A DNA stretch of 40,298 nucleotides from an uncultured Bacteroidota bacterium. GTDB lineage: Bacteria > Bacteroidota > Bacteroidia > Chitinophagales > Chitinophagaceae. The stretch covers positions 1 through 40,298 of the forward strand of contig CAIYJV010000212.1 in assembly GCA_903926605.1 (NCBI GenBank), in the 5' to 3' direction. Shown piece after piece: positions 35,417 through 36,810 of this stretch (positions are counted from its first letter, which is position 1; each line of letters begins with the position of its first letter). A model generated the notes under the pieces. That model searched no databases. It saw only the letters and a program-made list of their open reading frames with translations, and was not told where the DNA came from. The translations under genes were made by a program, and so were the position numbers.

Positions 35417-36487
35417 ATGCACACCACTTTTTCTCCTTACCGCCGGGGGCTTTCATTAGCCTGCACCGCCTTTGTTCTGGTTCTGGCACTAGCAGGAATG
35501 AGCGCCTGCAGAAAGGGCGCAAAGCCTGTAGCAACAGATATTGGCAATCCTGTTCAGACCAGCAACTCAGCCCCGGAAAATACGCTTACTGATGTGGTGG
35601 GTGTGATCAATATTCAGAAATCAGCCGACGGCACATCGGCCAGCGTTGCCTGTTCCCGGCATGAAATGCTGTTTACCGCACTGGGTGCAGATCTGATCTC
35701 AGGACTGGAGCACGCGCAGCAGCAAAATGTACCTGTACGCATTACGTTCGACCTGAACAGAAGCCTTCTGCTTCGTGCCGACCCCGTTACCACCAACGAA
35801 GAACACCAGTTCAAAGCTCGAATTGTGAAGACTATTGGTTCTGCCACAGACATGGAATCCCTGCGCGGCAACGAACAGGCAATAAACCATTTTGCAGATA
35901 TGGGCGTGATAAATACTACTGAACCCGGCCTGACACCTGTAGTTCCGGATATGGCCACTGCGCAGCAAATGTTCAACTATTTCTCTACTCAATGCTGCCA
36001 GAATCCCGGACCCTATGACATAGACCATTGTATCACCTTCCAGTATTGCGCCGATGGCTGCTACGCGCGGGCACACAAAATGTGTTACCTCATCAACAAT
36101 AAGTACCATTACGCCACGCAAAAGATATTCAGTTTCGCCACCGGAAGTTATTCACTCAGCGTGAAAGCCGGTAAATGGTGCGATCAGTGCATCAACTGGT
36201 GGTATCATGTGGCACCACTGGTTACCATTCAGACCACCAAGGGCCCGAAAGCCTACGTATTCGATCCCTCTATGTTCGACGAACCCGTGTTGCTGGCCAC
36301 GTGGCTGCACGCACAGGAAAACCCCGCCTGCTCGTCCACTCCCCGGGTGACTGCAATAAATATTCAGCCGACATCTTCTTACAGCCCGCTGGCATACGGC
36401 ATCACGACTATTTTTGATACCGACCCACTTTACTCAGACACCAACTCTACCCTCGTCAGCTACCATTATCTGCACACCTGTCCGTAA
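35417..36487 (+). CDS. Protein-glutamine glutaminase family lipoprotein
   Basis: A 356-residue lipoprotein whose C-terminal domain matches protein-glutaminase, known from Chryseobacterium, which deamidates glutamine side chains in proteins to glutamate with a transglutaminase-like fold. The lipobox is GMSAC (Cys31 after a charged n-region and FVLVLALA). Residues about 55-150 are a pro-region-like domain (LEHAQQQNVPVRITF). The catalytic domain starts near VVPDMATAQQMFNYF. It has DGCYARAHKM (nucleophile C215), NWWYHVAPL (H264) and YVFDPSMF (D283). Extra cysteines (C192, C193, C205, C211, C223, C255, C258, C305, C355) suggest disulfides. An ATG at 35345 is possible but spoils the signal. The stop overlaps the next start (TAATG). 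Substrate unknown. Confidence 0.85.
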   Translation: MHTTFSPYRRGLSLACTAFVLVLALAGMSACRKGAKPVATDIGNPVQTSNSAPENTLTDVVGVINIQKSADGTSASVACSRHEMLFTALGADLISGLEHAQQQNVPVRITFDLNRSLLLRADPVTTNEEHQFKARIVKTIGSATDMESLRGNEQAINHFADMGVINTTEPGLTPVVPDMATAQQMFNYFSTQCCQNPGPYDIDHCITFQYCADGCYARAHKMCYLINNKYHYATQKIFSFATGSYSLSVKAGKWCDQCINWWYHVAPLVTIQTTKGPKAYVFDPSMFDEPVLLATWLHAQENPACSSTPRVTAINIQPTSSYSPLAYGITTIFDTDPLYSDTNSTLVSYHYLHTCP

Positions 36488-36810
36488 TGCGCCGCCAAAA
36501 TCTGGTGAACCTGTTTTTCCTTTGCATCTTAGCCGGTGCCCTGTGTACGTTGCCTGCAAGTTTGTTGGGGCAGGTAAGGAATAACTGGACGGTACAAAGC
36601 ATTCGCGACACTGCCGGCCATGGCAATACCATTGTTACCTTCAGTCGGTCGCAAAGATTCTACCGGCTTCCCGATACCTGCCATGACTACCGTAAATACA
36701 TGAAACTGCTACAGTGGTCTTTGGCACACCAAAAACCATTGACTGTGTTAAGAGCAAACGAGACTACCAATGTGCTATCTGGTGTCAGGTCTGTTCGCTG
36801 CAAAAAATAA
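36487..36810 (+). CDS. Small secreted partner of the glutaminase, pro-region-like
   Basis: A 107-residue protein with a signal peptide (LVNLFFLCILAGALCTLPAS, cleavage near GQV). The mature part, about 78 residues, ends in RSVRCKK. The stretch SLAHQKPLTVLRANETTNVL aligns by pattern with the pro-region of the upstream enzyme (HAQQQNVPVRITFDLNRSLL): small residues, a Q-x-x-P turn, a hydrophobic strand, then a polar turn and a second strand. Its ATG shares one base with the glutaminase stop, so the two are made together. I infer a free-standing inhibitor or chaperone of the enzyme. The pattern match is short and unverified. It ends 10 bases before the convergent glmS stop. Confidence 0.72.
   Translation: MRRQNLVNLFFLCILAGALCTLPASLLGQVRNNWTVQSIRDTAGHGNTIVTFSRSQRFYRLPDTCHDYRKYMKLLQWSLAHQKPLTVLRANETTNVLSGVRSVRCKK

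Follow-up and report, generated by a model that had tools for sequence, protein, structure and literature searches.

The window analysed here, a stretch of 40,298 nucleotides from an uncultured bacterium of the phylum Bacteroidota, family Chitinophagaceae (contig CAIYJV010000212.1 of assembly GCA_903926605.1), contains a gene for a protein-glutaminase (PG) that overlaps with a gene for a small exported protein. This small protein, which we call the partner, is a free-standing homologue of the pro-region of protein-glutaminases. We propose that it serves as a trans-acting pseudosubstrate pro-domain that would bind and restrain the cognate glutaminase, a reading to which we assign a probability of roughly 0.7. 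The proposal builds on five directly computed observations: homology, fold, gene pairing, conservation of one loop and co-varying export signals. The elements of the pair are as follows.

35417 to 36487, forward strand: protein-glutaminase gene, encoding a lipoprotein of 356 amino acids, with a TAA stop and a match to PF18626
35417 to 35509, forward strand: lipoprotein signal peptide ending at Cys31 (sequence LAGMSAC)
35591 to 35791, forward strand: tethered (cis) pro-domain, residues 59-125
35960 to 36313, forward strand: catalytic domain with C215, H264 and D283, matching PF18626
36485 to 36489, forward strand: TAATG stop/start overlap of the enzyme and partner genes, with one shared base
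36487 to 36810, forward strand: free-standing pro-region-like partner gene, encoding 107 amino acids
36487 to 36570, forward strand: signal peptide-like leader of the partner, residues 1-28 (a hydrophobic stretch; lower-confidence part of the structural model)
36574 to 36792, forward strand: predicted pro-region fold of the partner, residues 30-102, with five strands and one helix (AlphaFold model; VIA match)
36643 to 36657, forward strand: loop S53-R54-S55-Q56-R57, in which Gln56 aligns with Ala47 of the pro-enzyme (pro-PG) by PDB chain comparison, alignment and column counts

The enzyme is a member of the family PF18626 (Gln_deamidase_2; 91.4 bits, E = 5.1e-26, cut-off 25), and the crystallised enzyme 3a54 resembles it across the catalytic part (E = 7e-20). 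Against NF040782, the PG_glutam_Chrys equivalog model of NCBIfam, it scores 82.7 bits (E = 2.7e-23) where the threshold is 250; judged by sequence, it is related to this type rather than an equivalog member. The initial annotation of this DNA had described a lipobox enzyme with a C215/H264/D283 triad and a TAATG junction, and its coordinates and residues are correct: the triad and Cys31 are invariant in nine aligned enzymes, the window's included, and the Cys-His-Asp triad occupies the same columns in 21 enzymes. It was also right that the enzyme keeps a tethered pro-region. A hidden Markov model (HMM) of pro-regions gives 116 bits on residues 59-125, with the window's own sequence in the model, and a cis profile of the window's clade (41 sequences) matches the Chryseobacterium cis pro-region profile at 93% (E = 3.4e-7); by both measures the enzyme has the N-terminal pro-region that marks protein-glutaminases. 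PF18626 is the only Pfam domain in the enzyme, the remainder being leader and pro-domain. The source genome (426 contigs, 97% complete) contains one match to PF18626 and one to the small protein.

For the partner, the open reading frame of 107 residues and its signal peptide-like start agree with the annotation. Pfam, NCBIfam and PADLOC yield nothing for it, and a BLASTP alignment of the window's two proteins returns E = 36, that is, no pairwise similarity; the 20-residue resemblance from which the annotation started is by itself not above chance. Profiles and fold do reveal a wider homology over about 65 residues. An HMM of 83 enzyme pro-regions scores 19.9 bits on residues 34-98 of the partner, outside the leader, and the best of 2000 shuffles of the mature part reaches 5.8 bits. 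With an HMM of 41 other partners (window's excluded), the score is 60.4 bits and the best shuffle 11.6. The cis pro-region HMM matches all 42 seed partners with E = 2.2e-6 or better; note that these are single-sequence E-values and that the match often includes the leader, which it does not in the window's protein. The annotation had suggested a profile search against protein-glutaminase pro-regions, and similarity was found: a profile of 27 partners, searched against the PDB sequences, matches residues 34-91 of 3a54/3a55/3a56 with E = 4e-8, the next match has E = 0.65, and the pro-PG pro-region is the sole significant match. The full-length PG model of NCBIfam matches 13 of the 27 partners at E up to 0.1, and on the partners of three loci (L088, L105 and L040; handles beginning with L or G are ours) it aligns through its pro-region part. 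With hhalign, the family profile (47 partners) matches the Chryseobacterium cis profile at 94% (E = 1.2e-7), the window protein alone at 0.8% probability (E = 0.073), and the Chryseobacterium partners match cis profiles weakly (40.5%, E = 2.9e-4; 16.5%, E = 0.0015). Taken at the level of profiles, the resemblance is a real homology between the small protein and the pro-region. The ratio of nonsynonymous to synonymous substitution rates (dN/dS) among partner relatives has a median of 0.093 (49 pairs with more than 70% identity), and the relatives are therefore real genes; the window's partner lies outside this set, having at most 32% identity to 26 others in alignment A2.

The predicted structure agrees with this assignment. 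The AlphaFold model of the partner has a predicted local distance difference test score (pLDDT) of 88 and a predicted template modelling score (pTM) of 0.68, and Foldseek, run against a library of 350,542 chains, ranks the pro-PG pro-region first (E = 3.3e-4). In the VIA comparison, model residues 28-107 superpose on residues 20-98 of 3a56 (76 residues, root-mean-square deviation (rmsd) 1.9, Z = 12.5); thus, going by the model, the partner has the same three-dimensional fold as the pro-PG pro-region. The pro-region of a second glutaminase, 8z3i, has Z = 9.6 and lies among general oligonucleotide/oligosaccharide-binding (OB) fold matches with Z of 10.0 or less. Among these, the B subunits of AB5 toxins score above 8z3i (Z = 10.0); the OB fold is common, and it is the profile match that discriminates.

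The loop between strands 2 and 3 of this fold reads F52 S R S Q56 R F Y59 in the window's partner. In the matched sequence, 3a56 differs from 3a54/3a55 at a single position (TAQFY and TQQFY, respectively); the title of 3a54 names a mutant A47Q, and counting along the printed chain makes this residue number 47. The 2011 structure paper reportedly shows the strand 2-3 loop covering the active site and Ala47 lying above the pocket, and takes the A47Q forms to mimic substrate complexes. Among 66 distinct partners, the Ala47 column contains Ala in 41, Gln in 22 (the window's included), Glu in two and Pro in one, so that 63 have Ala or Gln; Ser directly precedes this column in 64. Of 83 cis pro-regions, 42 have Ala in this column, 14 have Glu, 13 Pro, six Thr, six Gln and two a gap; the window enzyme's own residue is Glu83. 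We also considered whether cis residue 47 decays where a partner exists, and outside Chryseobacterium no clear pattern was seen (Ala: 17 of 46 with a partner vs 6 of 18 without); Thr or Gln occurs there in 12 of the 46 and none of the 18.

The Gln at this position admits another explanation, namely that the partner is a substrate or sensor whose loop Gln is deamidated, the Glu form reporting or timing enzyme activity. The 22 partners with Gln, the two with Glu and the crystallised A47Q pro-form are in its favour. However, Ala, which cannot be deamidated, occupies the column in 41 of 66 partners, so turnover cannot be a function that the partners share, and we regard this explanation as quite improbable. 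A narrower version treats the window's partner as a natural A47Q: it would offer a substrate Gln, and the enzyme would have to deamidate its inhibitor (Gln56 to Glu) to be freed, making the two a self-timing pair. This is doubtful; if it were true, Ala lineages would represent a permanent lock, Gln lineages a timed one, and Glu lineages a spent or product-like one.

The gene pair recurs widely. The partner is present at 65 of 88 distinct enzyme loci, which were picked by similarity to the window family and are not a random sample. Left out of the 88 are duplicate contigs, a locus with a partner whose enzyme misses the motif (L091), and the PF18626 loci L133-L136; with L091 and L133-L136 added, 66 of 93 loci have the partner. 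The loci with a partner come from Bacteroidota and from metagenome bins titled Verrucomicrobia, Chlorobiaceae, Acidobacteria (L105), Gemmataceae, Brocadia and Xanthomonadales, labels that may be wrong. In 28 of the 42 seed partners the partner overlaps with the enzyme gene by 10 nucleotides, starting nine bases before the enzyme's last base; in the window the overlap is one base.

In a genus sample of 118 genomes, inferred from their sequences to be Chryseobacterium, the partner occurs in 65 of 69 genomes with PF18626 vs 0 of 49 without (Fisher p = 6.5e-29, ignoring relatedness). All 65 lie on the same contig and strand as PF18626, 250-333 bases past the domain, although one (G782) is frameshifted into two pieces with a stop. 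The named Chryseobacterium loci L109-L125 have the partner in 15 of 17, all but L116 and L120, and four enzymes with intact frames have none that was found (L116, L120, G788 and G802). By eye, a remnant of a partner with stops is recognisable in L116 after position 5723; L120 shows no partner match after 5720. Eight genomes in a phylum sample of 395 match the partner model; seven of them, the window's included, carry PF18626, and among the 12 genomes with PF18626 five lack a partner match. The eighth, G668, has no PF18626 and a weak match (L144:1486-1785, E = 0.0016) among unrelated genes. Homologues lying mostly away from glutaminase genes would have told against the pairing that the initial annotation proposed; in both samples they adjoin such genes, so this objection falls away, with the weak match in G668 as the exception. 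A single-sequence search of 396 genomes of the order, only 13 of which have the enzyme, gives 1.1e-5 as the best match outside the window, with internal stops; the closest enzyme genomes in that sample (L032 and L033) have no partner. No relatives of the partner were confirmed on viral contigs.

Tandem arrangements were seen in passing: L118:4599-7375 has tandem glutaminase genes with a single partner gene in between, L100:4830-7322 (= L034) has tandem glutaminase lipoproteins with no partner match, and G798 of the genus sample matches PF18626 nine times, including seven matches on contig C2 at 204-218 kb, with no match to a free partner.

Export signals vary together in the two proteins. Across 63 pairs, a hydrophobic leader is present on both proteins in 50, on neither in 11 and on the partner only in two, an agreement of 61/63 under a simple hydropathy rule with enzymes of 250 residues or less and of 450 or more left out. 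Of the two mismatches, L095 begins at a contig end and the enzyme frame of L080 is short at its 5' end; the 11 leaderless pairs include L041, where we chose the partner start ourselves. The pro-domain, in turn, is found in several architectures: in cis only (e.g., L046 and L054), in cis and trans (the window and Chryseobacterium), and in trans only, at two loci without a detected cis pro-region, whose enzyme combines PF18626 with eCIS_core (L040; 394-2607) or DUF4280 (L041; 1045-2443) and is directly followed downstream by a small pro-like protein.

These last two loci best fit a classical toxin-immunity system, in which the glutaminase would be aimed at competitors, with the small protein conferring immunity; both enzymes carry a delivery or trafficking domain, and the small proteins are candidates for pro-region-type immunity proteins. 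For the window we regard this explanation as very unlikely. Its enzyme, a lipoprotein, has a cis pro-domain and, by Pfam, no delivery or trafficking domain, and the partners are conserved by dN/dS. In addition, intact enzymes can persist with a decayed or missing partner; the partner is then not essential, which speaks against strict immunity for the secreted type with a cis pro-domain. Inhibition or immunity, the role that the annotation suggested for the small protein, would be consistent with the data; its further idea, surface exposure with host, prey or competitor proteins as targets, receives no support from the analysis.

As separate observations made by eye, two tandem pro-like domains precede the catalytic domain in L106:4764-5804 (Agrobacterium) and L151:2422-3534 (a Sinorhizobium plasmid), as if the partner were fused into the enzyme. 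The L106 enzyme was modelled by AlphaFold as a stand-in for the complex: pLDDT is 66.6 and the distal domain is not resolved, and the proximal pro-like and catalytic domains overlay pro-PG over 250 residues (rmsd 4.6).

As to ancestry, a FastTree phylogeny of 126 short domains, with Chryseobacterium thinned to seven loci, places 46 of 56 partners, the window's included, in a pure clade (support 0.69); L040, L041, L095 and the seven Chryseobacterium partners fall outside it. The split that takes in every one of the 56 partners contains 10 cis domains as well (support 0.38). Given the pure clade, an old partner seems likelier than one copied afresh from the enzyme's pro-region in each lineage, although the data are short. 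The annotation had spoken of a second copy of the pro-region: a free-standing homologue is indeed present, whereas a recent copy of this enzyme's own pro-region does not fit the separate, weakly supported clade.

Under the pseudosubstrate proposal, the partner would be made from a gene overlapping that of the enzyme, presumably by co-transcription, travel to the same compartment and bind the catalytic domain in the manner of the cis pro-region. Its S-[A/Q]-[R/Q] loop would enter the active-site pocket as a pseudosubstrate, and the partner would keep the enzyme inactive, or re-inhibit enzyme stripped of its cis pro-region, in the neighbourhood of the producer's proteins, which would be protected in this way. 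There may be a division of labour: the cis domain would serve folding and export, and the partner would re-inhibit enzyme cut near home. According to one study (PMC13139226), cleaved propeptide appears to remain with mature PG and co-purifies with it, which suggests that a separate pro-piece can stay bound; in a related case propeptide removal required 4 M urea, and pro-PGB is about 17-fold less active.

Several points weigh against this proposal. In the same study, pro-PGB retains some activity with the propeptide attached. The enzyme already has a cis pro-region, so that a second inhibitor is at first sight redundant. No partner was found beside 23 of the 88 sampled enzymes, where the contigs of L097 and L108 end too soon to tell, and no partner match lies beside L133-L136; the partner is therefore dispensable. 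The Chryseobacterium partners (S-[A/Q/P]-Q-V-F-Y) could align shifted by one residue, which would place their invariant Gln, and not Ala/Gln/Pro, at position 47. A 2023 survey (PMC10318531) locates genes for type IVB secretion in the vicinity of PF18626 genes. Our literature searches found no assay of such a partner protein. Finally, the fold and the linkage fit equally well with a dedicated folding helper, which would template the catalytic domain in trans with inhibition as a by-product. The pro-region fold, the neighbouring gene and the same kind of leader all agree with such a helper, and other enzyme families include known cases of a pro-region that folds its enzyme in trans. However, most enzymes keep a cis pro-domain, the 23 loci do without the partner, and a chaperone does not need a near-invariant loop; we therefore consider a folding helper unlikely.

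Enzyme and inhibitor pairs of this general kind have precedents. The pro-region of pro-PG itself (3a54, 3a55 and 3a56; Chryseobacterium proteolyticum) has the same fold, a homologous sequence and the same strand 2-3 loop, but it is a cleaved N-terminal part of the enzyme, whereas the partner is encoded by a gene of its own, carries its own leader and shows a near-invariant S-[A/Q]-[R/Q] loop. As in the I9 and Spi types, a separate propeptide-homologous gene adjoins the enzyme gene. In the SpeB-Spi pair (C10 protease), a small gene encoding a free-standing propeptide analogue adjoins the enzyme gene; SpeB, however, is a cysteine protease and not a deamidase, Spi is believed to work in the cytoplasm, and the likeness to Spi is one of description. 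The staphopain-staphostatin and Bacteroides Bfp-Bfi/Btp-Bti systems are likewise co-transcribed pairs of an enzyme and a small inhibitor or inhibitor-like protein, which in Bacteroides is exported or a lipoprotein, but these inhibitors are staphostatins or staphostatin-like rather than propeptide-like (PMC2873492 and PMC3462683). Stand-alone subtilisin propeptides (MEROPS I9; SUB1-ProM) are free-standing pro-domains that are potent inhibitors, as proposed for the partner, and SUB1-ProM is in synteny with subtilisin genes; they differ in that their enzymes are serine proteases and the fold described for the propeptide consists of a four-stranded sheet carrying two helices (PMC6993865).

Operons of an enzyme and a small inhibitor are thus already known for cysteine proteases, and stand-alone propeptides for subtilisins; what is new, as far as our searches show, is the enzyme class. 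These searches, from which subscription papers were mostly missing, found no dedicated stand-alone pro-region partner of protein-glutaminases, and we know of no earlier report of one; in the small protein, these enzymes, which are used in food processing, would have their first dedicated protein partner. It would also be a natural and specific candidate inhibitor with natural variants at residue 47, the basis of the A47Q structures. The enzyme of genome G878 shares 99% identity with the crystallised one across 184 residues, and 72 bases downstream of it lies a partner of 102 residues (from ATG); binding and inhibition are therefore testable with a well-studied enzyme. A single pro-domain used in cis, in trans or in both would further link the secreted glutaminases with the toxin-like ones that carry eCIS_core or DUF4280.

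Two further features of the window are recorded here. The divergent neighbour of the enzyme gene (33789 to 35234, reverse strand) has a Por secretion tail (PF18962), and look-alikes of it, judged by eye, adjoin glutaminase genes in L032, L033 and L084. The region from 19147 to 23165 resembles what we take to be a carotenoid gene cluster, with a phytoene desaturase, a synthase, a hydroxylase and a cyclase named from their translations.
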